DNA of 29,556 bases from IMG/VR virus record IMGVR_UViG_3300027909_000303, positions 1 to 29,556 of that record. The stretch is one strand, 5' to 3'. Position numbers and translations under genes: made by a program. Source of the DNA: a virus. Of this stretch, positions 3,057-29,556 are shown piece after piece (position 1 is the stretch's first letter; each line of letters opens with the position of its first letter). Under the pieces are notes generated by a model. That model saw nothing but the letters and a program-made list of their open reading frames with translations, ran no database searches and was not told the DNA's origin.

Positions 3057-3109
3057 ACAGTAACACCCAGGGTGAACGCGATCACTTGATCCGAACTAGC
3101 CTGGAAGAG

Positions 3110-3205
3110 ATGAAGGCCCTTCATCATATGACCTGCTATGCGGCTATAAGATCGTCGAGGCCGGGCAAGCATAGCAGCGATATGGTGGAGGGCCTTTGTC
3201 TTCAT
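3110..3205 (+). other. Two-part stem-loop adjoining the 3206 tRNA-like gene
   Basis: CTGCTATGC (3133-3141) pairs perfectly with GCATAGCAG (3169-3177) around a 27-nt loop. Outside it, ATGAAGGCCC (3110-3119) pairs with GGGCCTT and TTCAT (3190-3205), with a small bulge. The structure ends exactly where the next tRNA-like gene begins, which would suit a 5' leader processed by RNase P. Confidence 0.5.
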
Positions 3206-3387: not shown

Positions 3388-3630
3388 ATGCACGCATGCA
3401 AGCTAAGCGATATCCTCTCTGACGAGGAGATAGGCTTCCTCCACGACGCCATGGAATCTGCAATGGGCGAAGCGGAGGAAGTGCTTGAACGGCACAAGAG
3501 CGAAGAGCCGCCGCTGTTCGACGTACAGACAACGGGCGAGGCTGCTGAAGACTATGTCAACCTAGTTGCAAGTCAGAAGCGACGTCTCGAAGCCCTTCAA
3601 AGGATCTACAACCTCTGCGAAGGGGGGTGA
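3388..3630 (+). CDS. Small acidic helical protein, unknown function
   Basis: An 80-residue protein with no recognised family. It is acidic and mostly predicted helix (SDEEIGFLHDAMESAMGEAEEVLERH, written as separate helices around a proline-rich centre), with a final helix rich in Lys/Arg/Leu. It is the first gene after the promoter at 3323-3352. Two ATGs compete: 3384 is in another frame, while 3388 opens the long frame and is spaced 8 bases from GGAGG, so 3388 is used. The next gene's ribosome-binding site lies in its last codons, so the two are translationally linked. The position suggests an early regulator, but this is inference. Confidence 0.75.
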   Translation: MHACKLSDILSDEEIGFLHDAMESAMGEAEEVLERHKSEEPPLFDVQTTGEAAEDYVNLVASQKRRLEALQRIYNLCEGG

Positions 3631-3632
3631 AA

Positions 3633-4220
3633 ATGACCGACCAGAAGGTAGACGACGATCGCCCCACCTCCGTAGTGTTTGACCACTGCGTCAAGGTGTA
3701 CGCCGAGATGGCTGCACAGTCCCTCGAGGAAGTGATCAGTGCATCTGAGCACCCCGACGACCCTGCGAACCATATGTTGGTGTACGAGGGACAACTCACG
3801 AAGTTGTTCGGAGCGCTAGCACTCAGTACTCCCTACTACACTTCGGTGATGAACCACCTGAAGTCCATGGGCTGCGTGGAACAGCTGCGACGGGGTGGAG
3901 GCAACTCTCCCAGCCGCTGGCGACTCCTTCGCGAGCCGGACGAGGATTCCTTCCGAAGCATCGAAGGGATGAAGCGCTCGCGCACGGGCAAGACTGCAGC
4001 ACTGGAACAGCAAGTGCGTGACTTGAACAAGCGGCTGCATGCAGCTGAGACGGAGCTGAGCAACCTGAAGGCAATGGTCAACAGGTTGGCGGAACTAAAC
4101 AATGGTATATCGGTACAGGCTGCTCGTGGTGAGATGGCATACAAGGAGCTACGCACACACTCACATGCCGTGCACACAATGCCTGGAGAAGCACCAGTAG
4201 TTCTGGAGGCGACAAAGTGA
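3633..4220 (+). CDS. Winged-helix plus coiled-coil protein
   Basis: A 195-residue protein. Residues about 50-100 read as a winged-helix DNA-binding domain: an LFGALALSTPYYTSVMNHL recognition-helix region, a GCVEQLRRGG turn and an RWRLL strand forming the wing. Residues 115-160 form a coiled coil (LEQQVRDLNKRLHAAETELS...), suggesting a dimer. It is likely a DNA-binding regulator or accessory replication protein; the target is unknown. The start at ATG 3633 is preferred over GTG 3627 because the GGGGGG ribosome-binding stretch ends at 3627. Its stop overlaps the next gene's GTG by four bases (GTGA), so both are in one operon from the 3323 promoter. Confidence 0.85.
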   Translation: MTDQKVDDDRPTSVVFDHCVKVYAEMAAQSLEEVISASEHPDDPANHMLVYEGQLTKLFGALALSTPYYTSVMNHLKSMGCVEQLRRGGGNSPSRWRLLREPDEDSFRSIEGMKRSRTGKTAALEQQVRDLNKRLHAAETELSNLKAMVNRLAELNNGISVQAARGEMAYKELRTHSHAVHTMPGEAPVVLEATK

Positions 4221-4537
4221 CAGACAGTAGTCAAACGACCCTCGAAGAGGCCAGCCGTTGCCCCAAGTGTGGACAGGCTGGGAACCAGACGAGCACGAAG
4301 CCTCTCACCTCCGGCTCCGGCAAGCTGCTGATGTTCAAGTGTGAGAACAGTCGTTGCAGGTGGTTCAACACTGAGTGGCCGGTGCAGGTGAGTGCCAACG
4401 GAACTATCCCGTTGACGCTCCAGCGGCCCAAGCAGTTCCAGCCGCTCATCGATGACGGCGGCAGGACGCTTGCCAACATCGAGAGGCAGTTGGAACTGGA
4501 GACCCAGAAGGGCTCCGAGATTAACAGAAGACGCTGA
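4217..4537 (+). CDS. Zinc-ribbon protein
   Basis: A 106-residue protein starting with GTG in a GTGA overlap with the previous gene. It holds one clear zinc ribbon: CPKCGQ near residue 15 and CENSRCRWF near residue 42, i.e. two Cys pairs about 25 residues apart. Such ribbons occur in transcription and nucleic-acid-binding accessory proteins. A short Pro/Gln segment and a C-terminal amphipathic helix ending in Arg residues follow. Together with the preceding winged-helix gene it suggests a small regulatory pair. It is the last gene before the structured RNA element at 4565-4645. Confidence 0.8.
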   Translation: MTDSSQTTLEEASRCPKCGQAGNQTSTKPLTSGSGKLLMFKCENSRCRWFNTEWPVQVSANGTIPLTLQRPKQFQPLIDDGGRTLANIERQLELETQKGSEINRRR

Positions 4538-4564: not shown

Positions 4565-4645
4565 TAGACTAGAGATAGACCAAGGTTTCCGCGCTCTCAT
4601 ATACCCTAAGTAAGGGCAAGATCCCTTGGTGTCTATCTTAGTCTA
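4565..4645 (+). ncRNA. Conserved structured RNA element, copy A
   Basis: TAGACTA (4565-4571) pairs with TAGTCTA (4639-4645). Just inside, GATAGACCAAGG (4574-4585) pairs with CCTTGG-T-GTCTATC (4624-4637), giving a stem of about 19 bp. The 38-nt loop contains TTCC (4587-4590), CTCTCA (4594-4599) and GTAAGGGC (4610-4617); CCCT (4604-4607) pairs with AGGG (4613-4616). The same blocks at the same spacing occur in copy B (28331-28408). It ends three bases before the GGGAGG ribosome-binding site of the next gene, so it probably acts as a 5' leader in cis. No known riboswitch family is recognised. Confidence 0.75.
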
Positions 4646-4658
4646 ACAGGGAGGTTCA

Positions 4659-5141
4659 GTGAGCGACAACAACGAGAGCGAAGGCGAGGCCCGTGAGGGT
4701 CATTCGTATGAGGGTGTAGAGGCGGCAGCGATCCAGAAGGAAGTGACAGACCTCCAGAACCTCTGGAACGCTTACGTCGAACTGACATCCGATGGTCGCG
4801 TTGCGGCAGGCCTTCATCCGCCGCCCGCCTTCATGGCCATGTACAGTGCACTGTTGGACATCAACAAGCCACTTGAAGCCATCATGGATATCGTCGAGCA
4901 CACCCAGGAGAACTACGACGCGCTCAGCAGCACGCTGACTCGTGTGGTGGCCTTCGGCGACGCCATGTTTCGCTTTGGTCAGTGGTGTGTGTCGCAGGGC
5001 TTGCTCCACGCCAACGCCATCCAGTGTCAGTGTGGAGCCGTCGACGACGACGAACTCAGCGAGGTGGCCAACAGTGACGTGAAGGTCGACCTATCCGACG
5101 ACGCCCTCAGGGCTTGGTTGGAAGGCGGCAAGGGTGCATAA
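4659..5141 (+). CDS. Acidic helical protein, unknown function
   Basis: A 160-residue acidic protein beginning at GTG 4659, behind AGGGAGG at 4648-4654. It is mostly predicted helix, with a hydrophobic central helix (PAFMAMYSALLDINKPLEAI) and a CQCG pair near residue 123 that is too isolated to call a zinc site. I do not recognise the family. Its interest lies in position: it directly follows RNA element A, and the SNF2-type helicase starts within its last codons (eight-base overlap). It could be a helicase partner, with expression of both set by the RNA leader; this is inference. Confidence 0.8.
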   Translation: MSDNNESEGEAREGHSYEGVEAAAIQKEVTDLQNLWNAYVELTSDGRVAAGLHPPPAFMAMYSALLDINKPLEAIMDIVEHTQENYDALSSTLTRVVAFGDAMFRFGQWCVSQGLLHANAIQCQCGAVDDDELSEVANSDVKVDLSDDALRAWLEGGKGA

Positions 5142-6675
5142 GCTGTACGACTTCCAAGAGAGTCTGGTTGCCAAGCACGTCGAAGTCCCCTTCACACTGG
5201 TGGGCGATGACATGGGCCTTGGCAAGACGATCGAAGCTATCGAGATCGACCGTCGCAAGAGAGAACGTTTCGCAGCCAACTTCATTGCCACGTACAAGGG
5301 AAAGCCACTCACGTTGGTAGTGACGCCGCTAACAGTCACCGGATCGTGGCTGCGTCACTACCGTGAGTGGGCACCTCACCTGAAGGTCATGGTCATCGAT
5401 CCCAAGAACCGTCCAGCCTTCCTGAACGCCGTGCAACAAGGCTTGGCAGATGTGTTCGTCTGCCACTGGGAAGGCCTTCGGATGATCGAGGAGCTCCGAA
5501 GCTTCAGGTGGTTCCACGTCATAGCAGACGAAGTGCACCGAGCAAAGAACCGTAAGTCACAACAGACGGTAGCGCTCAAGCTTCTGCATACAGACCACAA
5601 GCTAGGTCTGTCGGGAACCCCCGCAGACAACCGTCCCGACGACTTCTGGAGTGTACTGAACTGGTTGTACCCGAAGACGTTTACGTCATACAACCAGTTC
5701 AGGAACTACCACTTGATCATCAAGCGCCACACCAAGGGCAGTGACTCCTCACCCTATTGTACCGCTGTGGGCTGTGAGGTGGATCATAGGTCCAGCTTCG
5801 ACGAGATCATCGGCTGTGCGCACGTCGACGAGCTCCAACGAGCAATCAGACCCTACTACACACGGCGGCTCAAGGAGCAGGTGCTCGACGAGCTACCGGA
5901 CAAGTATCACAACGACGTCTTCGTCGACATCACCCCACAGCAACGACGTGCCTACAACGAGATGCGCAAGCACATGTTGGCTTGGGTGGGTAAGCATGAG
6001 AACGAACCCATCGCAGCACCGATCGTGCTAGCACAACTCAGGCGGCTCCAGCAGTTCGCGTGTGCATATGCACGTACCGAGACCGTCTTCAGACGGAAGA
6101 AGGACTGCAAGGATCCGGTATGCCTCGCCAACACCCTAGCAGCAGGCAAGTCTGTCTGTTCGGGTCACTGGGTGGAAGTGCTTAGGCTTGAAGAGCCCAG
6201 CTCCAAGTTGGATGCCGTGATGGAGATTGTCATGGACAACCCAACGCAGCAGCTGGTGGTCTTCAGCCAGAGTAGGCAGATGATCGACATGCTCGCAAAG
6301 CGCCTTGAGAAGCAGAAGGTGCCAACGGCGATCCTCACCGGTGACACACCCCAAGGCACCAAGCCAGGCCAACGTGACGACCTGGTAGAGAGATTCCAGC
6401 AGGGAGACTTCCGAGTCTTCGGCTCGACGATTCGTGCAGGTGGTGAAGGCATCACGCTCACCGCTTCGTCACACGTCGTGTTCACGGACAGAGACTGGAG
6501 CCCGTCTAAGAACAACCAGGCGGAGGACAGATGCCATCGCATCGGGCAGAAGAATGCCGTTCAGGTAACTAGCATCATCGCCAACGGCACGCTGGAGCCC
6601 AAGCGGAACAAACAGATCGAGATGAAGTGGCAGTGGCTCAAGGAGATCCTCGGCGACGAAGTTCCTCCAGAGTAG
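5134..6675 (+). CDS. SNF2-family DNA helicase/translocase
   Basis: A 513-residue superfamily 2 ATPase of the SNF2 group, using ATP to move along or remodel DNA during phage replication or recombination. Motifs in order: Walker A GDDMGLGKT (24-32), DEVH Walker B (132-135), LSGTPADN motif III (about 159-166), and motif VI QAEDRCHRIGQ (from 462), which gives the SNF2 signature Q and two Arg. Two Cys/His-containing insertions (a CTAVGCEVDH region, and CKDPVCLANTLAAGKSVC) may bind zinc; they are not part of the standard core. GTG 5134 overlaps the preceding gene by eight bases. All catalytic motifs look intact. Similar proteins are common in actinobacteriophages near replication genes. Confidence 0.93.
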   Translation: MHKLYDFQESLVAKHVEVPFTLVGDDMGLGKTIEAIEIDRRKRERFAANFIATYKGKPLTLVVTPLTVTGSWLRHYREWAPHLKVMVIDPKNRPAFLNAVQQGLADVFVCHWEGLRMIEELRSFRWFHVIADEVHRAKNRKSQQTVALKLLHTDHKLGLSGTPADNRPDDFWSVLNWLYPKTFTSYNQFRNYHLIIKRHTKGSDSSPYCTAVGCEVDHRSSFDEIIGCAHVDELQRAIRPYYTRRLKEQVLDELPDKYHNDVFVDITPQQRRAYNEMRKHMLAWVGKHENEPIAAPIVLAQLRRLQQFACAYARTETVFRRKKDCKDPVCLANTLAAGKSVCSGHWVEVLRLEEPSSKLDAVMEIVMDNPTQQLVVFSQSRQMIDMLAKRLEKQKVPTAILTGDTPQGTKPGQRDDLVERFQQGDFRVFGSTIRAGGEGITLTASSHVVFTDRDWSPSKNNQAEDRCHRIGQKNAVQVTSIIANGTLEPKRNKQIEMKWQWLKEILGDEVPPE

Positions 6676-9545: not shown

Positions 9546-9595
9546 CGGCCAAACGTCACCACATTGATCAACCGCACCTTTGTCAGTACAGTTCT

Positions 9596-9656
9596 CCACA
9601 GGGCCAAAGCTTCGAGTGCTCCATGGCTCGCAGCGCTTGCAACAAACGCCCTGTGG
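9596..9656 (+). other. Nested stem-loop between genes
   Basis: CCACAGGGC (9596-9604) pairs perfectly with GCCCTGTGG (9648-9656). Inside, AAGC pairs with GCTT, and CGAG (9613-9616) with CTCG (9627-9630). It lies in the gap between two genes, 29 bases before the next start, so it is a leader or terminator hairpin. CCACAGGGC also occurs at 22459 and 28453, there in small leader hairpins. Confidence 0.5.
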
Positions 9657-9684
9657 GGATCTGTATTCGCAAAGCCACACATTG

Positions 9685-16453: not shown

Positions 16454-16501
16454 GTGACCGACCGCGTTGTGTGCTAGGGGTAGGACTGCGCGGTCGGTCA
16501 C
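16454..16501 (+). terminator. Strong hairpin between ssDNA-binding and primase genes
   Basis: GTGACCGACCGCG (16454-16466) pairs perfectly with CGCGGTCGGTCAC (16489-16501), 13 bp around a 22-nt loop. Upstream in the same gap, GTCCGA and TCGGAC can pair. There is no T-run; the next gene starts 43 bases later at TTG 16544, so it may reduce rather than stop read-through, or act as a leader. Confidence 0.55.
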
Positions 16502-16543: not shown

Positions 16544-18760
16544 TTGGAAACACGCCAGCTTCGCGCAGCTTTCTTCAGGACGGTATTCGGACCGGTGAAG
16601 GGTGGGTACGTCTGTGTGGCGACGATTCCACCTGGTACTCGAAAGATGCGTGAGCGATACTTCGCTTGGCCTGACGAGGTAGAGGATATGCTCGAATACG
16701 TAGAGGACGTGGAAGACAGCAACAATGTCTACTACTGTCCTCAACTAGTCGAGGACCTAGACTTCAGACGTGCCTCAGACGGTAAGGGTCCACGTGTCAA
16801 GGAGAACGTCAAGATTTGCACAGTAGCTTGGGCCGACCTCGACGCTTGTCACCCCAACAAGCTTCTGGTCAAGCCTTGCTACGTCACTGAAAGCTCACCG
16901 GCAAGATATCAGGCCCTGTGGTTGTTTGACGAGCCGCAGGAGCCCGAGATCGCTGAGGCAATTTCGATGCGCATCTCGTACCACCACATTCCTGATGGCG
17001 CCGACAAGTCAGGATGGGACCTGACACAGCTCTTGAGGTTCCCATACACCAAGAACTTCAAGTACTCAGACACACCAGAAGTAAACGTACTAGCTCAGAA
17101 CCGAAAGCGCTACAGGCTGGATGACTTCAAGCCCTACCCACTAGCCTCGAAGCGTACCGGTGGTGGCATCCCGATGCCTGAGGGCGTTGAGTTCCCTTCG
17201 ATAGAGGACCCAGTCGACTTCATGCAGGCACGTCGTAAGTACCTCAACAGTGACGTGTTTCGGCTGTTCGCCGACCAACCCGAAGTAGAATCGTGGAGTG
17301 AGTCGCTCTGGAAGCTGATGATGCTTCTGTTCGAGGGCGGCCTCTCCCGCGAGGAAGTGTTTATACTTGCCAAGCAAGCGGCGTGTAACAAGTACGGACG
17401 AGACGGAAGACCAGACAAGCACCTCTGGGACGACGTGTGCCGAGCGTACATCAAGCACATGGAAGACATCAAAGCTGTCGTCGTCCCCGAGCTAGAACAA
17501 GTTGACCTCATCACAGAAGCTGAGATGACTCGGGTACGGCAGCACCACACGTTCGTAGAGAGGTACGTCCAATGGGCTACCGACCTAGGCGACGCCGCAC
17601 CCCAGTATCACCAGGCTGGGGCATTTGTGATCCTGTCAGCACTGCTGTCTGGAACAGTCTCGCTACCTACCTCATTCGGGAACCTAGTCCCGAACATGTG
17701 GTTCATGCTGCTAGCGGATACGACCCTGACGAGGAAGTCGACGTCGATGGACATAGCGACGGACTTACTGATCGAGGTGGATCCTGACGCAATCATGGCC
17801 ACAGACGGCTCCGTGGAAGGTCTCATGCAAGGCCTGTCAACCCGACCAAAGAGGCCTTCGATCTTCCTCCGAGACGAGTTCACCGGTCTACTAGAGGCGA
17901 TGACCAAGAAGGACTACCTCGCAGGTCTCGCTGAGACGTTGACCAAGCTGTACGACGGCAAGTTCCAAAAGCGAATGCTGCGGAAGGACATCGTCGAGAT
18001 ACGCGATCCCATCCTGATAGTGTTCGCAGGAGGCATCAGGGCAAGAACACAACAGCTCCTTACGTTCGACTACATCTCATCGGGCTTCATACCTCGCTTC
18101 ATCTTCCTAACGGCTGAGTCAGACGTGTCACGAGTCAAGCCGTTGGGTCCACCGATCACACGTGACATGGCGGCGAGGGAAGCTCTTCTCGAAGAGGTAA
18201 GGGACTTACACAGATACTACAACCAACAGCTCAACGTCAAGATCGACGAGACAGGCATTGGCCTGGGCGTCCCACGGAGGTGGCGAGGGTCACTAACAAA
18301 GGATGCCTGGGCTAGGTATGGTCTGTTTGAGAAGGCACTACTTGACGCCGGAGTGAAATCCGATCGTCCCGACCTAATGACACCTGTGTATGCTCGCCTA
18401 GGGATGTCTGCGCTCAAGGCTGCCTTGCTGCTTGCAGCATCTGATCAGCGGAGCGACGAAGTCGTCGTGGAGGAGATACATATCCTCCACGCTATCGCCT
18501 TCGCAACCAAGTGGCGTGAGTACGCAATAGACATCATCAACGGCGTCGGCATGACGCAGGGCGAACGTGAGTTGGATCGTATCTACGGTGCGATCCAAAA
18601 GCAGCCAGGTATCAGCCGTTCGCAGTTGATGCAAGGTTACCACCTCACGGCAAGGAATGCCGATGCTGTATTCCAGACATTGGAGCAGCGCGGCTTGATC
18701 ACCTCAACGAAGTTCGGCAAGGGTACAACCTATCGTCCAGTTGCGGCGGATGCAGAATGA
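16544..18760 (+). CDS. Primase-helicase with DUF3987-like ATPase
   Basis: A 738-residue replication protein that likely makes primers and unwinds DNA. The N-terminal part (about 85-180) resembles archaeo-eukaryotic primase/RepB: VAWADLDA gives the two Asp (98, 100), then a RYQALWLFDEP strand and a GWDLTQLLRFPYTKNFKY end motif. Residues 340-560 fit the DUF3987 helicase-like ATPase, with a P-loop relative (ADTTLTRKSTSM, 391-402) and an Asp-Glu in IFLRDEFTG. The C-terminus (about 670-735) is a winged helix (GISRSQLMQGYHLTARNAD...). It begins at TTG 16544 behind GGAAAGGTG. It overlaps the next gene in ATGA and carries intact motifs in order. Confidence 0.85.
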   Translation: METRQLRAAFFRTVFGPVKGGYVCVATIPPGTRKMRERYFAWPDEVEDMLEYVEDVEDSNNVYYCPQLVEDLDFRRASDGKGPRVKENVKICTVAWADLDACHPNKLLVKPCYVTESSPARYQALWLFDEPQEPEIAEAISMRISYHHIPDGADKSGWDLTQLLRFPYTKNFKYSDTPEVNVLAQNRKRYRLDDFKPYPLASKRTGGGIPMPEGVEFPSIEDPVDFMQARRKYLNSDVFRLFADQPEVESWSESLWKLMMLLFEGGLSREEVFILAKQAACNKYGRDGRPDKHLWDDVCRAYIKHMEDIKAVVVPELEQVDLITEAEMTRVRQHHTFVERYVQWATDLGDAAPQYHQAGAFVILSALLSGTVSLPTSFGNLVPNMWFMLLADTTLTRKSTSMDIATDLLIEVDPDAIMATDGSVEGLMQGLSTRPKRPSIFLRDEFTGLLEAMTKKDYLAGLAETLTKLYDGKFQKRMLRKDIVEIRDPILIVFAGGIRARTQQLLTFDYISSGFIPRFIFLTAESDVSRVKPLGPPITRDMAAREALLEEVRDLHRYYNQQLNVKIDETGIGLGVPRRWRGSLTKDAWARYGLFEKALLDAGVKSDRPDLMTPVYARLGMSALKAALLLAASDQRSDEVVVEEIHILHAIAFATKWREYAIDIINGVGMTQGERELDRIYGAIQKQPGISRSQLMQGYHLTARNADAVFQTLEQRGLITSTKFGKGTTYRPVAADAE

Positions 18761-19713
18761 CAATGCCATTACCTTGGAGCGATGTCAACTCCGACCCACT
18801 ACAGGACATAAAGGACTTCCTCGCCGCTGAGCGAGCGAAGCCGTACTACTACAGTCCAGTCTATGGAAGGACAAGGATGAGCAAGGGTGTCGCCATCGTC
18901 TCAGGTGGCCTCGACAGCACGACAATGATCTACCACCTACTCGCGGGAGGTCACGAGCTCCGACTTCTGTCCTTCGACTACGGCCAGCGGCACGGTCGTA
19001 AGGAACTGAAGGCGGCAATGAACATTGCCAACCAGCTCGGTCTGCAATGGGACCTCGTGAACCTACGGGGCATGACCCACCTCATCGACAACAGTGCACT
19101 CACGTCGGCCAAGTCGACACCTGGTAACCCTGCACACAAGTACGATGGTCGCGGCAATGAGATCGGCGTGCACAAGGACATCGAGGTGCCCGACGGTCAC
19201 TATGCCGAGGAGAACATGAAGGCCACCGTCGTGCCCAACCGCAACATGATCATGCTCTCCATCGCAGCCGGCGTCGCGGTCAACGAGAAGCTGAACTTCA
19301 TCGCGACTGGCGTTCACTCCGGCGACCACTTCGTCTATCCGGACTGCCGCCCCAACTTCATCGAGTACGCGGCACGAACCATCTTCATCGGCAACGAAGG
19401 CTTCCACAACTTCGACACTGGCCTGTCGATGCACGGACCGATCCTGGCACCCTTCATCGAGAGGTCCAAGGCCGACATCGCCTACCTCGCCATGGAGCTG
19501 AACGTTCCAATCCACCTGACGTGGTCGTGCTACAAGGGTGGCGAGAAGCACTGTGGCAAGTGTGGTACCTGCGTCGAGCGCCTCGAGGCCATCGACGAGG
19601 CCATTCGTCGGCACATCGCGGAGGGAAGCAGCCACTACTACGAGGACATGACGGAGTACGAGGACACCGAGTACTGGCGCCAGGCAGTCAGGGAGGCAAA
19701 GCAGAATGGCTAA
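18757..19713 (+). CDS. queC: 7-cyano-7-deazaguanine synthase QueC
   Basis: A 318-residue enzyme that turns 7-carboxy-7-deazaguanine into preQ0 using ATP and ammonia. The PP-loop SGGLDSTT lies at 49-56; a DYGQRH segment and NRNMIMLSIAAG follow as expected. The C-terminal zinc site is CYKGGEKHCGKCGTC (Cys 258, 266, 269, 272). The first 40 residues precede the usual family start and are of unknown use; a better ribosome-binding site (GGAAGG) lies before the in-frame ATG at 18877, so the true protein may be 278 residues. ATG 18757 overlaps the primase stop. Together with QueD, QueE and FolE downstream it completes preQ0 synthesis for DNA modification. Confidence 0.95.
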   Translation: MTMPLPWSDVNSDPLQDIKDFLAAERAKPYYYSPVYGRTRMSKGVAIVSGGLDSTTMIYHLLAGGHELRLLSFDYGQRHGRKELKAAMNIANQLGLQWDLVNLRGMTHLIDNSALTSAKSTPGNPAHKYDGRGNEIGVHKDIEVPDGHYAEENMKATVVPNRNMIMLSIAAGVAVNEKLNFIATGVHSGDHFVYPDCRPNFIEYAARTIFIGNEGFHNFDTGLSMHGPILAPFIERSKADIAYLAMELNVPIHLTWSCYKGGEKHCGKCGTCVERLEAIDEAIRRHIAEGSSHYYEDMTEYEDTEYWRQAVREAKQNG

Positions 19714-19903
19714 GGCAACCTACGGCTTCAAGGCCAGCGAGTGGAACGAGATCGAGGCTACCAAGGACGCCATCCGGCGAGCCACTGAGGACGGTATCCT
19801 CACGGACTACAAGGGCAGCTACGAGACCGAGAAGGTGCAGACCGACGACCAGCGTCATGAGGACGAGTTCTGCATCGTCATTCGCACACCCAACGAGGCC
19901 TAG
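19706..19903 (+). CDS. Small charged protein, unknown function
   Basis: A 65-residue acidic protein overlapping the queC end by eight bases. It contains a helical half (FKASEWNEIEATKDAIRRA) and a short strand (FCIVIRTP). There is no recognisable motif. It may be a small accessory of the 7-deazaguanine cassette or unrelated; the tight overlap shows only co-translation. Confidence 0.65.
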   Translation: MAKATYGFKASEWNEIEATKDAIRRATEDGILTDYKGSYETEKVQTDDQRHEDEFCIVIRTPNEA

Positions 19904-20167
19904 ATGACTTGGATAAATGCACTCCAGATCGCACTCCTGTTGATGTGGTTCGCACTGCTAGCGAACCTCGTGGCGAACAACGTCATCTCCCACTTCTGGA
20001 GGGAGTCATCGAAGTACTACAACGAGCTCGACCACAACGGTGAGGATCCTCGTAGCGTGTCTGTCTCCAACACTGGCCACGCCATCGCACACAGCGGCGG
20101 CAAGGCCAACACCGGAGTCGTCTACGATGACAAGCCGAAGCCTTGGACCACCGGGAACGCGGTGTAG
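19904..20167 (+). CDS. Small membrane protein
   Basis: An 87-residue protein starting at ATG 19904, immediately after the preceding stop. The N-terminal segment (INALQIALLLMWFALLANLVA) is a membrane helix; the remaining 60 residues are hydrophilic and Gly/Ser/Asp-rich, with no metal site. Topology cannot be fixed from sequence. The role is unknown, and a membrane protein within a nucleotide-modification cassette is notable. Confidence 0.7.
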   Translation: MTWINALQIALLLMWFALLANLVANNVISHFWRESSKYYNELDHNGEDPRSVSVSNTGHAIAHSGGKANTGVVYDDKPKPWTTGNAV

Positions 20168-20168
20168 C

Positions 20169-20405
20169 ATGAAGCGAGCCTACATCATGCTGCGTCCCGA
20201 CGTACTCGCACAACTGCTTGACCTGCCTGAAGGCGTCAACGTTCACAGCGTGAATGCTAACTGGCTAATGGACGGCATCGAGGTCATGCTAGAAGGCGAT
20301 GGCCTTCCGGCAGGCGCAGAGTACGTACGTGGCACCGTCCCAATGAACATTGGCGTCTCAATGGTTGTGACCGATGAGGGAAGGATCCAGGTGGAGTGGC
20401 AATGA
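20169..20405 (+). CDS. Small protein, unknown function
   Basis: A 78-residue protein starting at ATG 20169, two bases after the previous stop. It has an alpha/beta pattern (RAYIMLRPDVLAQLLDLPEG, GIEVMLEGDGL, GVSMVVTDEG) and no known signature. Its stop overlaps the queD start by four bases (ATGA), so it is translationally coupled to the queuosine-type gene. Confidence 0.65.
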   Translation: MKRAYIMLRPDVLAQLLDLPEGVNVHSVNANWLMDGIEVMLEGDGLPAGAEYVRGTVPMNIGVSMVVTDEGRIQVEWQ

Positions 20406-20854
20406 GCTTCATTGAGGTTCGACACAACATGGAAGTAGCCCACCGGCTGTACGAGCTGCCTGGCAAGTGCGAGAACATCCACGGTCACTCCATGTGGGTG
20501 GACCTCAGGCTGCACGGACCAATCAACCAGAAAGGCATCCTCGGTGGCTTATCGTTCGGCGACGTCAAGAAGGCCTTCCGTGGCTTCCTCGACGATGCCT
20601 TCGACCACCACCTTCTTCTGAACGTGAACGATCCGTGGGCTACTGGTCTCTGGAACTCTCGCACCGAGGGAACAGCTCGAAACATCAACGAGTTCCTGGG
20701 GCAGCTGCCAGGACTCATGACCTTCCCTGGTGACCCGACGACGGAGAACCTCGCCAAGTGGATCGCCAAGTGGGCTGTCGACGAGTTCAAGCTGCCAGCC
20801 GACGTCACCGTACATGAGACGTCGGTCAACTCCGCAGGCTTCTCGGCAAGGTAG
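20402..20854 (+). CDS. queD: 6-carboxytetrahydropterin synthase QueD
   Basis: A 150-residue enzyme of the QueD/PTPS family that converts dihydroneopterin triphosphate into 6-carboxy-5,6,7,8-tetrahydropterin. The start region NMEVAHRLYELPGKCENIHGHS gives the catalytic Cys (CENIHGH) and zinc His residues. SFGDVKK, FDHHLLLN, TTENLAKWIAKW and VHETSVNSAGFSAR appear in the family's order, and the length is usual or slightly long. The start is ATG 20402 in ATGA with the preceding stop, rather than 20396. It is part of the FolE-QueD-QueE-QueC route. Confidence 0.93.
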   Translation: MSFIEVRHNMEVAHRLYELPGKCENIHGHSMWVDLRLHGPINQKGILGGLSFGDVKKAFRGFLDDAFDHHLLLNVNDPWATGLWNSRTEGTARNINEFLGQLPGLMTFPGDPTTENLAKWIAKWAVDEFKLPADVTVHETSVNSAGFSAR

Positions 20855-20858
20855 GCCT

Positions 20859-21230
20859 GTGGACAACCTCAAGCTCGACATCTCCCCCTTCCGCGTAGGC
20901 AAGTACGTCGGCCTGACCGAGATAGGTCGTATCGGCCTCATCGTGGGCATGCGCCTCGACGAGGAGGGGGAGATCAAGAGGGTATACCGCCCGCAATGCA
21001 AGCTGACGATGTACGGCGTCAGGTCAACCTTTGACCTCACACTTCAACTTCTGCCACCTGGCACAGAGGAAGAACTATCCTTCTCGATCCCCGACCTGAT
21101 GGGTCGTACACCCATTCTGATCGAGGAGACGCCCTTCCACGTCTCAACTGTGCGAATGCAAGGGGAAGAAGTATCCGTCCAACTACTCCGAGCATACTGG
21201 AAGGACAGCGATGCTGTTGAAGGTAAATGA
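20859..21230 (+). CDS. Beta-rich protein within the cassette, unknown function
   Basis: A 123-residue protein starting at GTG 20859; upstream in-frame starts lie inside queD. It is predicted to be mostly strands (KYVGLTEIGRIGLIVGMRLD, STFDLTLQLLPPG, ISVQLLRAYW-like end) without catalytic motifs or membrane helices. It ends 20 bases inside queE. Its position between QueD and QueE invites a link to deazaguanine handling, but no sequence feature supports a reaction. Confidence 0.7.
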   Translation: MDNLKLDISPFRVGKYVGLTEIGRIGLIVGMRLDEEGEIKRVYRPQCKLTMYGVRSTFDLTLQLLPPGTEEELSFSIPDLMGRTPILIEETPFHVSTVRMQGEEVSVQLLRAYWKDSDAVEGK

Positions 21231-21996
21231 AATCTTCGGACCAACGATACAGGGAGAAGGCTCTGCGGCCGGACGTCACTGTGTCTTCGTTCGACTTGCA
21301 CTTTGTAACTTGGAGTGCAAATGGTGTGACACTGCATACACGTGGTCCTTCACACCTCAGAAGTCAGCCAAGCACCAACTCGGAATCATCTATGACCGCG
21401 ACAAGAACCTCTTCGAGATGAACGCCCAGCAGGTGATCGACCAGCTGCTCACCAAGTGGGACATCTACGACATGCCGACGATTGTTGTCGTCAGTGGTGG
21501 AGAGCCCATGATGCAGCAGGAAGCACTCATGCCACTGCTGTATGAGCTCAGCGCCGCCGGCAACGAGATCCACATCGAGACAGCTGGAACCATCGCTCCC
21601 CAGGTGGACATCAGCTTTGAAGCTGTTGCGGGCGGCGTTGTACGCAGAGGCTTCGACGACGTCGTGACACAATTCAACGTGTCGCCGAAGCTTGCGAACA
21701 GTGGAAACGTCCTCAGCAAGCGATACAAGCCAGAGGTCATCCAGCAGTTTGCACATCGCGAGTCAGCTCGATTCAAGTTCGTCGTGACCTGTGCAGACGA
21801 TCTGTACGAGGTCGATGAGATGGTGATACGTCACGGCATTCCCGCAGGCCGTGTCATGGTCATGCCCGAGGGTACCACTGTCGATGCCAACCTCAACACC
21901 GCCAGGTCGGTAGAGGAAGCAGTGATCTCCCGCGGGTACGGCCTCACGCTTAGGTCGCACATCCTGCTATGGCCACAAATCGAACGGGGGAAGTAG
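21211..21996 (+). CDS. queE: 7-carboxy-7-deazaguanine synthase QueE
   Basis: A 261-residue radical SAM enzyme that contracts carboxytetrahydropterin to 7-carboxy-7-deazaguanine. Near the N-terminus FGPTIQGEGSAAGRHCVFVRL precedes CNLECKWCD, the CxxxCxxC cluster-binding site. VSGGEP (about 95-100), HIETAGT and FNVSPK match known QueE positions. The length is close to bacterial relatives. The start lies 20 bases inside the preceding gene, with AAGGACAG upstream. All key Cys are present, so it should be active. Confidence 0.94.
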   Translation: MLLKVNEIFGPTIQGEGSAAGRHCVFVRLALCNLECKWCDTAYTWSFTPQKSAKHQLGIIYDRDKNLFEMNAQQVIDQLLTKWDIYDMPTIVVVSGGEPMMQQEALMPLLYELSAAGNEIHIETAGTIAPQVDISFEAVAGGVVRRGFDDVVTQFNVSPKLANSGNVLSKRYKPEVIQQFAHRESARFKFVVTCADDLYEVDEMVIRHGIPAGRVMVMPEGTTVDANLNTARSVEEAVISRGYGLTLRSHILLWPQIERGK

Positions 21997-21997
21997 C

Positions 21998-22423
21998 GTG
22001 CGAGCAGCTGCAGGAATACTGTTCGTCGGCTTCCCGCGTCTCGCCCTTATGGTTAGGACCAGCTACAAGCAGCACTGGGATATCCCCGGAGGCATCGTAG
22101 AGCCAGGCGAGACGCCCACCGAGGCCGCCGAGCGCGAAGTGAAGGAGGAGCTCGGTGTGGTCGTCAAGGCAGGACGTCTCCTGGTGTGCGAGAATGTCCT
22201 CCTTACGGGCAAGGAGCTTCTGACTGCCTACATCTTCGAAGGGGACAGACTCGATGTCGATGCATACACAATCGACGGCGAAGAAGTTCTCGAGGCCTCG
22301 TGGTGTTCGCCCGTGAAACGTAGGGCGTACACGCAGACTGCTCCCATCTTCCGCAACCGCCTTGAGCTCGCCTTCACGGCTCTCGCGACCGAGACGACTG
22401 TGTACCACGAGCACAGGGCATAG
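21998..22423 (+). CDS. Nudix hydrolase
   Basis: A 141-residue enzyme with a complete Nudix box: GGIVEPGETPTEAAEREV followed by KEELGV, matching GX5EX7REUXEEXGU. It cleaves a nucleoside diphosphate-linked substrate, possibly a modified or damaged (d)NTP; the substrate is not shown by sequence. Two hydrophobic strands precede the box, as in the fold. GTG 21998 follows GGGG near the end of queE. Placed between queE and folE, it may remove pterin or nucleotide by-products, or dihydroneopterin triphosphate; that is inference. Confidence 0.9.
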   Translation: MRAAAGILFVGFPRLALMVRTSYKQHWDIPGGIVEPGETPTEAAEREVKEELGVVVKAGRLLVCENVLLTGKELLTAYIFEGDRLDVDAYTIDGEEVLEASWCSPVKRRAYTQTAPIFRNRLELAFTALATETTVYHEHRA

Positions 22424-22457
22424 ACGAACATCAATGCGCAACCCTACAACTACAAAT

Positions 22458-22483
22458 CCCCACAGGGCGAAGGAGTGTGACCG
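22458..22483 (+). promoter_or_regulatory. Repeated leader hairpin plus ribosome-binding site
   Basis: CCCCACAGGGCGAA (22458-22471) forms a small CCC-CACA-GGG hairpin directly before GGAG and the folE start at 22483. The same 14 bases occur at 28452-28465, upstream of another start. It may be a translational control element shared by the two genes. Confidence 0.45.
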
Positions 22484-23061
22484 TGACACCTGATGAACCA
22501 GGCGTGGAAGTCCTGGACGCGAAGGTCGTAGCAGCAGCCAAGCTGTTGCTGGAGAAGGCTTGTGGCCTGATGCCCGATGAGCACGGCACTGACACACCAA
22601 CGAGATTCGTGGCGATGCTGATGGAGTTGACGACTGCAAGGTCATTCAACTTCAAGGTGTTCGACGCCAAGGGCAAGGACGAGATGGTGATCATTCGCAA
22701 CATCCCGTTCGTCAGCGTCTGCAATCATCACGTCGTTCCCTTCATCGGGAAGGCCGACATCGGGTACATCCCCGGTGACTACATGGCAGGCCTCAGCAAG
22801 TTCGCACGAGTCGTTCACTTCTTCGCCAGGTCGTTGCAGGTGCAAGAACGCCTGACGGAGCAGATCGCCGACTTCCTGGAGGAGAAGCTGAAGCCTCGCG
22901 GCCTTGCCGTCGTCCTGGAAGCAGAGCACATGTGCATGACTATCCGTGGAGTCCAGACGCCTGGCACGACAACGTACACAGCCGTCATGCGAGGCTTCTT
23001 CAACGATCACGACCGCACGGCCAAGGCCGAATTCCTCGATAGGATCAACGGAAGCAAGTGA
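22483..23061 (+). CDS. folE: GTP cyclohydrolase I FolE
   Basis: A 192-residue enzyme that opens GTP to 7,8-dihydroneopterin triphosphate, the first step of the preQ0 route here. The zinc site and core appear in order: SVCNHHVVPF, IGYIPGD, GLSKFARVVHFFARS, LQVQERLTEQIA, EAEHMCMTIRGV with the second zinc Cys, then a short end. GTG 22483 is preferred because the GGAG at 22472-22475 is 7 bases away; GTG 22477 is too close. The preceding leader hairpin is unusual. The host must have its own FolE, so a phage copy implies high demand for deazaguanine during infection. Confidence 0.94.
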   Translation: MTPDEPGVEVLDAKVVAAAKLLLEKACGLMPDEHGTDTPTRFVAMLMELTTARSFNFKVFDAKGKDEMVIIRNIPFVSVCNHHVVPFIGKADIGYIPGDYMAGLSKFARVVHFFARSLQVQERLTEQIADFLEEKLKPRGLAVVLEAEHMCMTIRGVQTPGTTTYTAVMRGFFNDHDRTAKAEFLDRINGSK

Positions 23062-23171
23062 AGTACCTCTGCGCCTTCATGTTGGTGTTCGGGGGCCTGT
23101 ACGCCTTACAATGGGCGACCATTTGGTTTGCAGGCCCTCGACCACCACGTCCCCCAAAGGAAAGCCGATGA
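23058..23171 (+). CDS. Very small membrane protein
   Basis: A 37-residue protein beginning at GTG 23058 (GTGA overlap with folE) and ending at TGA 23169-23171, where the next ATG overlaps in turn. A hydrophobic helix (YLCAFMLVFGGLYALQWATI) is followed by a proline- and arginine-rich tail (GPRPPRPPKESR). The double overlap supports a real gene. The function is unknown. Confidence 0.5.
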   Translation: MKYLCAFMLVFGGLYALQWATIWFAGPRPPRPPKESR

Positions 23172-23515
23172 ACCTGAACGAACTAATAGACCAGTGTCAG
23201 TTGGACTCTGACCGCTGGTTCCCAAACATCTCCAAGGATCTACCCTTCACGGTTCTAGCACTCGTTGGCGAGACAGGCGAGATGGCCAACCTCGTCAAGA
23301 AGGTCGTTCGCGGAAGCCTCAGTTTGGAGAACGTCAAGGACGACCTTGGAGAAGAGGCCGTCGACGTTCTCATCTACCTCTGCATGGTCTTCGCCGCGCT
23401 CGACATCGATCCCATCCAAGTGTACAGAGAGAAGAGGGCAAAGAATGAGCTCCGATTCGGCCGAGGGCCGCTCACAGACCTCCTCAACCTCCAACCAGGA
23501 ACCGACAAGTCCTGA
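23168..23515 (+). CDS. MazG-like nucleotide pyrophosphohydrolase
   Basis: A 115-residue protein of the MazG/all-alpha NTP pyrophosphatase group. GETGEMANLVKKVVRG gives the first metal-binding Glu pair; LGEEAVDVLIYL gives the second (EExxD). KRAKNELRFG follows, as in phage MazG proteins. It probably cleaves (d)NTPs or the alarmone-like nucleotides of the host to control pools during replication; the substrate is not visible. ATG 23168 lies in an ATGA overlap. A second MazG-like gene follows in an overlapping frame. Confidence 0.88.
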   Translation: MNLNELIDQCQLDSDRWFPNISKDLPFTVLALVGETGEMANLVKKVVRGSLSLENVKDDLGEEAVDVLIYLCMVFAALDIDPIQVYREKRAKNELRFGRGPLTDLLNLQPGTDKS

Positions 23516-23837
23516 CTTCAAGTTGGAGCAGGCTCCGGTAGACGCCGAGCTCATCAAGCGGATGCAGGTTCTGTCTGAGGAGTTCGACGTTCTGTGTCAG
23601 AAGCGACACGACATGGGCGAGCGGAAGTACGGCCCTGGAACATGGCTCGGCGTCGACACCCTCGAGATGATCATCGAGGAACTGATCGACATCGCCAACT
23701 ACGTGCGCTTCAGCTTCGTCAAGCTCAGGATGATACAGGAAACCCTCGGCACGGACCGCTCAACGGCAACGCCCCAACTTGGCAACGAGATGATGGGGAA
23801 GGACGCGTTCACTTCGGCGGTAAGGAGTTCCGAATGA
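23445..23837 (+). CDS. Second MazG-like or related helical phosphohydrolase
   Basis: A 130-residue protein starting at ATG 23445, 71 bases inside the preceding MazG gene and in another frame. The N-terminus is Ser/Gln/Thr-rich and disordered; the core QKRHDMGERKYGPGTWLG and LEMIIEELIDIANYVRF has the E...EExxD pattern of all-alpha NTP pyrophosphatases seen in phages. The first metal-binding Glu is less clear, so the assignment is moderate. A sizeable overlap of two related folds may reflect tandem duplication or simple compaction. The next gene starts within its stop. Confidence 0.75.
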   Translation: MSSDSAEGRSQTSSTSNQEPTSPDFKLEQAPVDAELIKRMQVLSEEFDVLCQKRHDMGERKYGPGTWLGVDTLEMIIEELIDIANYVRFSFVKLRMIQETLGTDRSTATPQLGNEMMGKDAFTSAVRSSE

Positions 23838-24652
23838 AAGTGGGGTTAATTCCTCCACGAGGGCTGGAGAACCTGGTCCTCCGTTCCAAGTTCCACCTCG
23901 CGCTGGCCATCGACGAACTGATGGGACGGCGCATGTACGCTGGCATGTACAAGCGTGCAGCGGAGCTTGGCGACTACGTTGTGCTCGACAACGGTCTGGC
24001 GGAGGGAATGCCGTGCACGCCTTCCCTCCTCTACAGCCACGCCAAGAAGCTCGAGGTGTCTGAAGTCGTCGTTCCCGACGTGATGAAGGACGCTGAAGGA
24101 ACCATCACACAGGTGAAGCTGTTCTTCAACGAGGATCGCAAGCCCCTTCCCATTAAGCACATGGCCGTCGCGCAGGGTAAGACGCTGCCCGAGTTCCGTC
24201 GCTGCGTGGAGGAGTTCGCGAAGGTCGAGCACGTAACCGTTGTCGGCGTTCCGCGGCACATGCTTGGGACGCTGGGGACGCAAGCATGCCGTATCGAGTT
24301 CTCGAACTGGATTGAGAACCAATACCCTGGACGCTTCGAGCAGCACTTCCTCGGAACCAATCCCATATGGATAGGAGAGGTCAAAGCCGCATCGAAGTAC
24401 ACGGTGGCACGTTCGGTCGATACGTCGATGCCCTTCAGCTACGCCATAGCAGGAGAGGACCTCGCCGAGACCACGGCTGAGATCATCCGTCCGAGGGCTT
24501 ACTTCGAGACCGACTGGACCTTCAGGGTCGACATCAACCTCGTCCGTAGAAACATCGCTACTCTGTTGGGGTGGGCAGGTGCAACAGGTACCAGATCCTA
24601 CGAGCGAGCGGAGGCATCCGCTCGCCCTGTGCGAAGAATGTCCGCTGTTTAG
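23834..24652 (+). CDS. DpdA-like DNA deazaguanine transglycosylase
   Basis: A 272-residue protein predicted as a TIM barrel related to tRNA-guanine transglycosylase. The DYVVLDNGLAEG motif resembles the family's D-S-G-G loop with the first Asp, EVVVPDVMKDA carries another Asp, and ARSVDTSMPFSYA near residue 195 is like the second active-site region in phage DpdA proteins. DpdA exchanges guanine in DNA for a 7-deazaguanine such as preQ0. It directly follows the complete preQ0 pathway, which strongly supports this. The ATG at 23834 is behind AAGGAG. It overlaps the polymerase start by 74 bases. The exact subfamily and the base inserted are inference. Confidence 0.75.
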   Translation: MKVGLIPPRGLENLVLRSKFHLALAIDELMGRRMYAGMYKRAAELGDYVVLDNGLAEGMPCTPSLLYSHAKKLEVSEVVVPDVMKDAEGTITQVKLFFNEDRKPLPIKHMAVAQGKTLPEFRRCVEEFAKVEHVTVVGVPRHMLGTLGTQACRIEFSNWIENQYPGRFEQHFLGTNPIWIGEVKAASKYTVARSVDTSMPFSYAIAGEDLAETTAEIIRPRAYFETDWTFRVDINLVRRNIATLLGWAGATGTRSYERAEASARPVRRMSAV

Positions 24653-27696: not shown

Positions 27697-28030
27697 ACCG
27701 TTTGTCTTCACCACTTGGCGCGAGGAGAAGTCGTGCCAAACAGTCGTGAAGCTAAGCCGTGGCGCTGAGAGCGTCCAGTGTGTCGTGACCGACGAAGTGC
27801 TTGTATCCACTGACCAAGGCTTCGTCATGGGCATGCTACTCGAGATGCTGGCAGACCTATGGTACACAAGGTACGGACGACGCCTAGTCGTCGAGGCGCC
27901 CAACAGCGCTGGGTACCCATGGCGCATCACCATGCAAGACGAGGAGGAAGACGTCCTCGAGGGGGAAGTGATCGAAGAGAGGAGTGCGATCGATGCCCCG
28001 CGGAAAGCCATCGAAGGACGGAGACACTAA
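27689..28030 (+). CDS. Small alpha/beta protein, unknown function
   Basis: A 113-residue protein beginning at ATG 27689 inside the preceding gene; the earlier in-frame ATG has no ribosome-binding site and overlaps more. The pattern FVFTTWREEKSCQTVVKL, VQCVVTDEVLV, GMLLEMLADLWYTRYGRRL suggests a strand-strand-helix fold. The end is acidic then basic. No known family. The HNH-like gene starts within its last codons. Confidence 0.65.
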   Translation: MAEPFVFTTWREEKSCQTVVKLSRGAESVQCVVTDEVLVSTDQGFVMGMLLEMLADLWYTRYGRRLVVEAPNSAGYPWRITMQDEEEDVLEGEVIEERSAIDAPRKAIEGRRH

Positions 28031-28319
28031 CGTTGCCAAGAATGGTTACCACTATACCAAAGTCGACGGCCACTTTCGCCTGACACATCACATCATCGCG
28101 GAGCAGGCACTCGGACGGTCCATCGAACCTGATGAGACAGTCAGCTTCGCAGACAACGATCGCACCAATCTCGACCCAACCAACATCGTTGTCTCCAGAA
28201 GGAAGACGTCGCTCAACGGTAAGATTGCAGCACTCACCGCCAGGATCCTAGAACTCACGGCGGAGCGTGACCGTTTAGTAGCAATCAGAGAAAAGCAAGG
28301 TAAAGCTAAGACAGCGTAA
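27993..28319 (+). CDS. HNH-like nuclease domain protein with altered motif
   Basis: A 108-residue protein whose core HFRLTHHIIAEQALGRSI...DETVSFADNDRTNLDPTNIVV matches the layout of short HNH endonucleases (HH...E..LGR...V.H.D.N..N..P.NI); I give it as a pattern over positions about 30-72. The usual V-H-H-x-D is V-S-F-A-D here, so the second His is missing and activity may be lost or altered. The C-terminus is a Leu-rich coiled coil (IAALTARILELTAERDRLV). ATG 27993 follows GAGAGGAG; GTG 27984 is an alternative. It is not inserted in another gene, so homing is not shown. RNA element B begins 11 bases after its stop. Confidence 0.72.
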   Translation: MPRGKPSKDGDTNVAKNGYHYTKVDGHFRLTHHIIAEQALGRSIEPDETVSFADNDRTNLDPTNIVVSRRKTSLNGKIAALTARILELTAERDRLVAIREKQGKAKTA

Positions 28320-28330
28320 GAGACAAGAAC

Positions 28331-28408
28331 AGACGAAGAGAGACAAGCAATTCCATACTCTCACGTAGCTTTCGTAAGGGCTAGGATCTTGCTTGTCTCT
28401 CTCAGTCT
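28331..28408 (+). ncRNA. Conserved structured RNA element, copy B
   Basis: AGAGAGACAAGCAA (28337-28350) pairs perfectly with TTGCTTGTCTCTCT (28389-28402). Outside, AGAC (28331-28334) pairs with GTCT (28405-28408). The 38-nt loop contains TTCC (28351-28354), CTCTCA (28358-28363) and GTAAGGGC (28374-28381) at the same spacing as copy A. An inner hairpin AGCTTT (28367-28372) with loop CGTA and AGGGCT (28377-28382) matches A's inner hairpin in position. It lies about 90 bases before the TTG start at 28496, with a small leader hairpin between. Function unknown. Confidence 0.75.
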
Positions 28409-28448
28409 AAACACTCGCTACATTGATCAGCTGGTACTTGCGATACCA

Positions 28449-28495: not shown

Positions 28496-28960
28496 TTGTT
28501 CGTTATGGTTGCAGGACGGCAACAAGGTAAATCCGTCACTGCTGTGCGCTGGCTACTGGAGCAACCGAGTGAGAGGGTGCTACTCACCTCAACCATGGGA
28601 CGCCAGGAGCATCTAGTCCGTATCGCTGGACGGCTTCTGCCAGTACGGGAGATGTCACACCAAGCCTTTGTGGACTTCAAAGACTACATCGCAAAGCGCA
28701 TCCTAGCTGTAGGAGTTATGCGTGGCTATGACTTCGACCTCCTGCGCGGCATAGCAGCGGAAGTCGGAATCGACGATGCAGAAGAGGTCCTTCAGACGCT
28801 GCTCCAACGCCGTGTGGGGTTTGCAGCGTTCAACGCAACACTGGTCCCTGTCGTTGTCGGAGCAAGCTTTGGCAAGGGCTATGTCGACGCAGAGCAAGTA
28901 GCTGTCGAGGCACCCAGAGCTATCCGAGGGAGGCCTATCCGTGACAACCCCCAAGCCTAA
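28496..28960 (+). CDS. Small P-loop protein
   Basis: A 154-residue protein whose first residues (VMVAGRQQGKSVTAVRW) form a Walker A-like loop of the terminase or RecA style, followed by a strand (RVLLTST). The Walker B acidic residue is not clear, and the protein is too short for a full terminase or helicase, so it could be a small ATP-binding accessory or remnant of a larger gene. It starts at TTG 28496, spaced properly from AAGGGAGAG; ATG 28505 would shorten it slightly but is too far from that site. It lies downstream of RNA element B. It overlaps the resolvase start by 20 bases. Confidence 0.7.
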   Translation: MFVMVAGRQQGKSVTAVRWLLEQPSERVLLTSTMGRQEHLVRIAGRLLPVREMSHQAFVDFKDYIAKRILAVGVMRGYDFDLLRGIAAEVGIDDAEEVLQTLLQRRVGFAAFNATLVPVVVGASFGKGYVDAEQVAVEAPRAIRGRPIRDNPQA

Positions 28961-29435
28961 CCTGCCGATGATACTTGCACTCGACCCAGGTGGGACAACT
29001 GGCGTGTGCCTCTACAACCCGGTACGTGACACCACTGAGATCGAGCACTTCGGTCCACACGAGCACCACCGCGAGCTTTGGGACATGCTTGCTGAAACAC
29101 TTGGCGAGTCCTTCACAGCGGGAGTGCGACTGCACATTGTGTGCGAGTCGTTCGAGTTTCGCCAGACCGAACGGCACCGTGACTTCATCAACTACATACC
29201 ACGTGAGTACATCGGCATCGCCAAGCTGTTCTGGCAGATACACAGATCGCCTTCGGGTGTAATGTACTACGAGCAAAGGGCGTCACAGGCCAAAGGTTTC
29301 TTCAGCGATGATAAGGTGAAGCAACTCACCCTGTGGGTCCCTGGGCGTAAGCACGCAATGGACGCCACTCGCCACTATCTATATCACAGGGTCTTCACCC
29401 TCAACGACAAGTCGCTGCTATACAAGTTGCGCTAA
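28941..29435 (+). CDS. RuvC-like Holliday junction resolvase
   Basis: A 164-residue nuclease of the RuvC/RNase H fold that cuts branched DNA from replication and recombination. The first motif ILALDPGGTTGVCLY carries the first Asp, IVCESFEFR the Glu, and HAMDATRHYLYH near residue 140 the last Asp. The overall order and length fit phage RuvC-like proteins. GTG 28941 follows GGGAGG in the preceding gene. It complements the Cas4-like nuclease, Sak4-like ATPase and polymerase in the window. Confidence 0.87.
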   Translation: MTTPKPNLPMILALDPGGTTGVCLYNPVRDTTEIEHFGPHEHHRELWDMLAETLGESFTAGVRLHIVCESFEFRQTERHRDFINYIPREYIGIAKLFWQIHRSPSGVMYYEQRASQAKGFFSDDKVKQLTLWVPGRKHAMDATRHYLYHRVFTLNDKSLLYKLR

Positions 29436-29443
29436 GCAGTAGT

Positions 29444-29497
29444 GAGCCCCCGCTCGAGGAGCCCGTGCGGAGTGGCAGACACGGGGAGCGGGGGCTC
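29444..29497 (+). terminator. Strong hairpin after the resolvase gene
   Basis: GAGCCCCCGCTC (29444-29455) pairs perfectly with GAGCGGGGGCTC (29486-29497). Inside, CCCGTG (29462-29467) pairs with CACGGG (29480-29485). It lies nine bases after the resolvase stop and before a stretch without genes, so it is the best terminator candidate in the window. No T-run follows, as is common in actinobacterial systems. Confidence 0.7.
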
Positions 29498-29556
29498 GGC
29501 TTGTGAAAAGGTTACGCTGTCGATAGCTTGGTGTCACCGAAGACAAGCAGTCCAGC

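Follow-up and report, generated by a model that had tools for sequence, protein, structure and literature searches.

A repeated site of helically phased boxes and opposed arms, possibly a DNA control site, in a large family of uncultivated phages

The stretch of viral DNA analysed here, 29,556 nucleotides long (IMG/VR record IMGVR_UViG_3300027909_000303, positions 1 to 29,556; hereafter the window), carries two copies of an element that an earlier note, made from the sequence of the window, had described as a structured RNA preceding genes. The element is real and more general than that note saw. We lean towards reading it as a repeated viral control site that acts mainly as double-stranded DNA and whose phased boxes are bound by a phage protein. 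On the side of this reading are the boxes themselves, their helical phasing, the quantised spacing of the arms and the conserved placement of the sites, which head operons or separate modules; the self-complementarity of the arms is likewise shown and is significant. Against it stand the lack of a promoter hexamer at any fixed place and the observation that the arms match better within a site than between sites, whereas a plain operator needs none of that. A DNA control site is nevertheless favoured over an RNA leader because the boxes are phased, because some sites lack a hairpin and because the core occurs in either orientation.

Copy A (site A, positions 4565–4645) consists of two TAGAC boxes, a core of ~50 bp and two GTCTA boxes, the arms being self-complementary. 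The outer left box (4565–4569) and the inner left box (4576–4580) are on the minus strand, 11 bp apart; the inner right box GTCTA (4631–4635) and the outer right box GTCTAA (4641–4646) are on the plus strand, 10 bp apart. The GTG start (4659) of the next gene is 13 bp downstream. Copy B (site B, 28331–28409) has a core of ~50 bp between AGAC boxes at 28331 and 28341 and GTCT boxes at 28395 and 28405, the outer right one reading GTCTAA (28405–28410, plus strand), and its arms are again self-complementary. The core, or loop, blocks TTCC-N3-CTCTCA-N10-GTAAGGGC lie on the plus strand at 4587–4617 in copy A and at 28351–28381 in copy B; these are the two mismatch-free matches to the pattern, with no other in the window, for a chance expectation of 0.04 matches with three mismatches or fewer. 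The earlier note had thus placed both copies, their blocks and their spacing correctly, and the sharing of the loop is beyond chance. It was also right that the stems of the two copies differ in sequence and stay paired and that AGTCTAA follows both. Both copies fold stably (z of −4.6 for copy A and −7.0 for copy B, with none of 200 shuffles as good); the inner hairpins that the note had drawn (CCCT/AGGG and AGCTTT/AGGGCT) are, however, absent from the minimum-energy folds. Its statement that no known riboswitch matches holds, and extends to other RNA families: the element has no Rfam match, and at the curated threshold the Rfam covariance models gave only three tRNAs in the window and no match in 13 relatives. 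Neither a sigma-70 promoter nor an intrinsic terminator, i.e., a GC-rich hairpin followed by a T-run, was found at either copy.

A blastn search with the window and the elements against sequenced phage isolates returned chance-level matches only, and a search of bacterial genomes with the polymerase, for a prophage or a host, returned no match. A first pattern scan of viral contigs yielded a near-identical phage (L005, 97%); the other three of its four matches (L003, L004 and L006) were without arms and AGTCTAA and were set aside as chance matches in another phage. Via the gene downstream of copy B, a 43-kb syntenic phage of ~72% nucleotide identity (G001) was found. It has an element at both syntenic places, with stems and loop blocks unlike those of the window, and its own two loops have AGGTTAAA and AAGATC in common. 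The loop blocks, held by the earlier note to be constant, are therefore common to the two copies within the window phage but not shared with this 72%-identical relative. To the right of copy B, a 20-bp stretch, ACACTCGCTACATTGATCAG (28411–28430, plus strand), is nearly unchanged in G001; at 8 bp from the box of copy B it includes TACATT, which could be a −10 hexamer. A core of the form CTCTCA...GTAA.GGGC...GATC, similar to that of the window, recurs in the more distant L059 and L060. An alignment of the polymerase brought together 80 loci, all belonging to a single large family of uncultivated phages, and the element of site B is syntenic in G001, L010 and many other relatives. A mobile element of the MITE type was ruled out because the positions are syntenic in diverged phages.

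Across the family, the most constant feature is not the hairpin but an array of boxes (GTCTAAC), and copies of GTCTA (AGTCTAAC) are the hallmark of site B. Counted over 761 kb, GTCTA ranks first among all 5-mers for self-spacing of 10, 11 or 21 bp, with 86 pairs at these spacings versus a total of 65 at the other 37. The excess is 16-fold; its significance, like that of the other box and spacing counts given here, is overstated because the related phages are not fully independent. The peaks at 10–11, 21 and 32 bp, with few pairs at 22, match the helical repeat of B-DNA. The pattern GTCTA-N5/6-GTCTA gave, over 27 whole records, 50 phased pairs against 4 for a reversed control pattern, and TCTAA and GTCTA led again among the well-populated 5-mers of 24 further contigs. 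The spacing between the inner boxes was measured at 20 sites picked by their boxes alone, the boxes being relaxed to AGAC/GTCT: it is either 43–44 bp (8 sites) or 53–55 bp (12 sites) and never between, so that the two classes differ by one helical turn. Phased boxes also occur as direct repeats (L011, L044). A −10 hexamer (TANNNT) at a fixed offset from a box showed no clear enrichment over 65 sites across the family, and no promoter hexamer was found at a fixed place at the sites. At site L of G013, and in L039 and L045, tandem TTGACAA repeats ~11 bp apart adjoin a GTCTAAC box.

Most relatives, 13 of them with full or nearly full records, have one to six sites per genome; a few records have degenerate arrays only. 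The places of the intergenic sites are conserved: A before the replication helicase operon, B after the DNA polymerase and HNH genes, C inside the late operon near tail genes and L near the terminase operon, the late-region genes being named from order, size and strand and not from family searches. In the window, all the genes around the two sites are on the plus strand. Upstream of site A lie a gene for a winged-helix protein with a long coiled coil (3627–4220) and, between it and the site, one for a protein that weakly resembles Ogr/Delta zinc-finger proteins, below the curated cut-off (4217–4537). Downstream are a gene with no assigned function (4659–5141) and the DNA helicase gene (5134–6675), which heads the early replication genes and in the family follows site A. 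Site B is preceded by the HNH endonuclease gene (27984–28319) and followed by genes for a putative P-loop protein (28496–28960; GRQQGKS was noticed on reading the sequence, and there is no family match) and for a protein of phrog_1981, a family of unknown function, that reads as RuvC-like (28941–29435). The order polymerase, HNH, site B and RuvC-like gene is kept in L010–L012, and the order polymerase, HNH and site recurs in most of the records taken in full. Where the early genes end, directly behind the RuvC-like gene, the window has a member of a second hairpin family (29443–29498; 28 relatives, e.g., L043:8794–8838) whose stem is long and variable and whose loop, of GAGGGA type, contains a small inner hairpin, often with TAGAC...GTCTA on the flanks; it is possibly a bidirectional terminator.

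The winged-helix protein encoded at 3627–4220 appears to be the best candidate for binding the boxes, an association that is circumstantial and comes from co-occurrence and neighbourhood. A profile HMM of it gave exactly one match, with strong E-values, in each of 15 out of 15 genomes, and wherever both were mapped the homologue is encoded close upstream of site A; about one third of 24 new contigs had no clear array downstream of the winged-helix gene. The structure model shows a winged helix and a long coiled coil. It matches DNA-binding winged helices in fold, and its best fold matches, which are weak (E about 0.004), are the N-terminal domains of plasmid RepA initiators, followed by transcription regulators; TubR is also listed, and the matches are not OmpR-like. 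A GntR-like protein (24–368) was rejected as the binder as it has no homologue among the open reading frames of the relatives. Each site has a core of ~40–50 bp between two opposed arms, and each arm carries two or more boxes (GTCTAAC) spaced by 10–11 bp. In the mechanism that we propose, this spacing would let copies of the candidate winged-helix protein occupy neighbouring boxes on the same face of the helix. The bound arms would be brought together over the core, and binding may turn the neighbouring operons on or off, namely those of replication, the polymerase end, the late genes and the terminase. The hairpin would then be a consequence of the opposed arms and of some additional force that keeps the two matched, for instance a role of the RNA, repair of the quasi-palindrome or formation of a cruciform.

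The proposal of the earlier note, that the element acts in cis as a structured RNA within the mRNA, be it a leader, a processing site or a protein-binding hairpin, seems to us unlikely, but it is a serious candidate. It is in keeping with the stable folds of copies A and B, with the location of the elements between co-directional genes, copy A lying just before a start codon, and above all with the pairing of the arms. In an alignment of eight elements, 83.8% of the stem cells are paired versus 20–50% when the alignment is slid, and the covariation score is above that of all 500 shuffles; the further copies with covarying stems that the note had suggested looking for thus exist in related phages. 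Over the 20 sites, pairing of an arm with its own partner has a mean of −24.2 kcal/mol, versus −17.7 kcal/mol with other arms, which none of 20,000 permutations reached. Self-complementarity of the arms is therefore real and is selected or maintained, but it is not obligatory, because some sites are unpaired: the hairpin is absent at 3–4 of the 20 (G015 B, G015 C and G011 A are unpaired), and L011 has direct-repeat arrays without an evident hairpin. The helical phasing of the direct repeats also speaks against an RNA, as does the make-up of the stems, which would be unusual in an RNA stem that evolves: 95% of the pairs are strictly Watson-Crick and 2% are G-U. Departures from pairing on the sense strand are more often G-U than A-C, as an RNA would have it; at 8 to 3 the difference is not significant, and we dropped it as a discriminator between RNA and DNA. 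A cis-regulatory RNA has a fixed orientation relative to the gene that it regulates; the core has none relative to its flanking genes. Its direction is the same at window A and B, at G001 A and B and at G015 B and C, but it runs opposite to the flanking genes at the three sites where their strand is best supported (G009 A, G014 A and G010 28208), and probably also at G013 L. For G009 and G014 the direction of the flanks is fixed by two plus-strand genes, that of the winged-helix protein upstream of site A and that of the helicase downstream. Such inversions make a cis-acting RNA with a loop that is read unlikely, since that loop should not invert. What stands of the functional RNA under structural selection is a conserved structured element with covarying stems; its action as an RNA leader is the less likely part.

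We regard it as quite improbable that the sites are iteron-like arrays for replication or partition, several per genome, bound by an initiator or a ParR/TubR-like protein. In parC of plasmid R1 and in iteron origins, phased 11-bp repeats surround a core of ~40 bp, and phased boxes around a core recall these systems; the RepA and TubR fold matches of the candidate binder and the position of sites A and B on either side of the replication module fit as well. However, a plasmid has a single parC or iteron locus, served by its own ParR/ParM or Rep gene, whereas here there are several loci, up to five or six per genome and one of them within the late operon, and their positions track operon boundaries. 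A very improbable reading is that template-switch repair of quasi-palindromes keeps the inverted arms identical and that the hairpin itself is functionless. It would account for arms that match within a site and differ between sites of one phage, and for the almost purely Watson-Crick pairing, but it leaves the conserved positions, the boxes and the phasing unexplained and could only supplement a DNA site. A phased DNA control site is the reading that we retain. One elaboration of it, which we hold to be unlikely, is a dual-purpose element in which a phage protein reads the phased DNA boxes and the same boxes, their self-complementarity preserved by selection, form a hairpin, as cruciform or RNA, as a second functional state.

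The sites can be set beside repeats described in other phages and bacteria. Like the extended start-associated sequences (ESAS) of Cluster K mycobacteriophages, imperfect inverted repeats of unknown function that lie upstream of genes throughout the genome and whose consensus varies between phage subclusters, they are inverted repeats upstream of genes, repeated through the genome and differing in sequence between phages. In ESAS, however, the arms measure 17 bp and the spacer 4–13 bp, and the repeats accompany a 13-bp SAS located at the start codon (PMC3203893), whereas here each arm is an array of boxes phased at 10–11 bp, the core measures 40–50 bp and a genome has one to six sites; arm and spacer lengths thus do not agree with membership of ESAS. 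Cluster O mycobacteriophages have 17-bp inverted-repeat sites, likewise repeated in the genome and without fixed orientation to transcription, but there a short palindrome that does not vary is present in more than 30 copies, one third of them in coding regions, with no phased arrays (PMC4351075), whereas phased arrays are what is seen here. Direct repeats ~11 bp apart are shared with OmpR/SARP-type operators such as the OtcR sites, whose repeats, 11 bp apart, are bound side by side by winged-helix proteins; those proteins are host regulators, and the −10 at a fixed 8 bp from the repeat (PMC4393881) was looked for and not found here, where there are two opposed arms and a core.

The window has further features. 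A CCCACAGGGC-like motif (9596, 9656, 22460, 28454 and others, on both strands) is found throughout the family at 3–17 copies per genome, some of them immediately ahead of start codons. A 14-bp hairpin GTGACC...GGTCAC with loop GTGCTAGGGGTA (16454–16501) has a counterpart in G001 in which the loop is kept and the stem core is different. Two more long hairpins with G001 counterparts lie at 3107–3202, just before a tRNA-Arg, and at 9578–9674. Queuosine-type genes occupy 18757–24652, QueC- and QueE-like by family matches and QueD-, GTP cyclohydrolase- and DpdA-like by reading of the sequence, and point to 7-deazaguanine modification of the DNA.

Hairpins that covary in leaders are usually taken for RNA switches; that phased arrays for DNA binding can give rise to them calls for caution in RNA discovery by covariation. 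Were the element dual-purpose, one type of site would couple the control of all phage operons at the DNA and RNA levels. As a DNA control site, it would provide a genome-wide control-site system, together with a candidate regulator, for a large family of uncultivated phages; the collections of isolates and bacterial genomes searched contain no close relative of that family.
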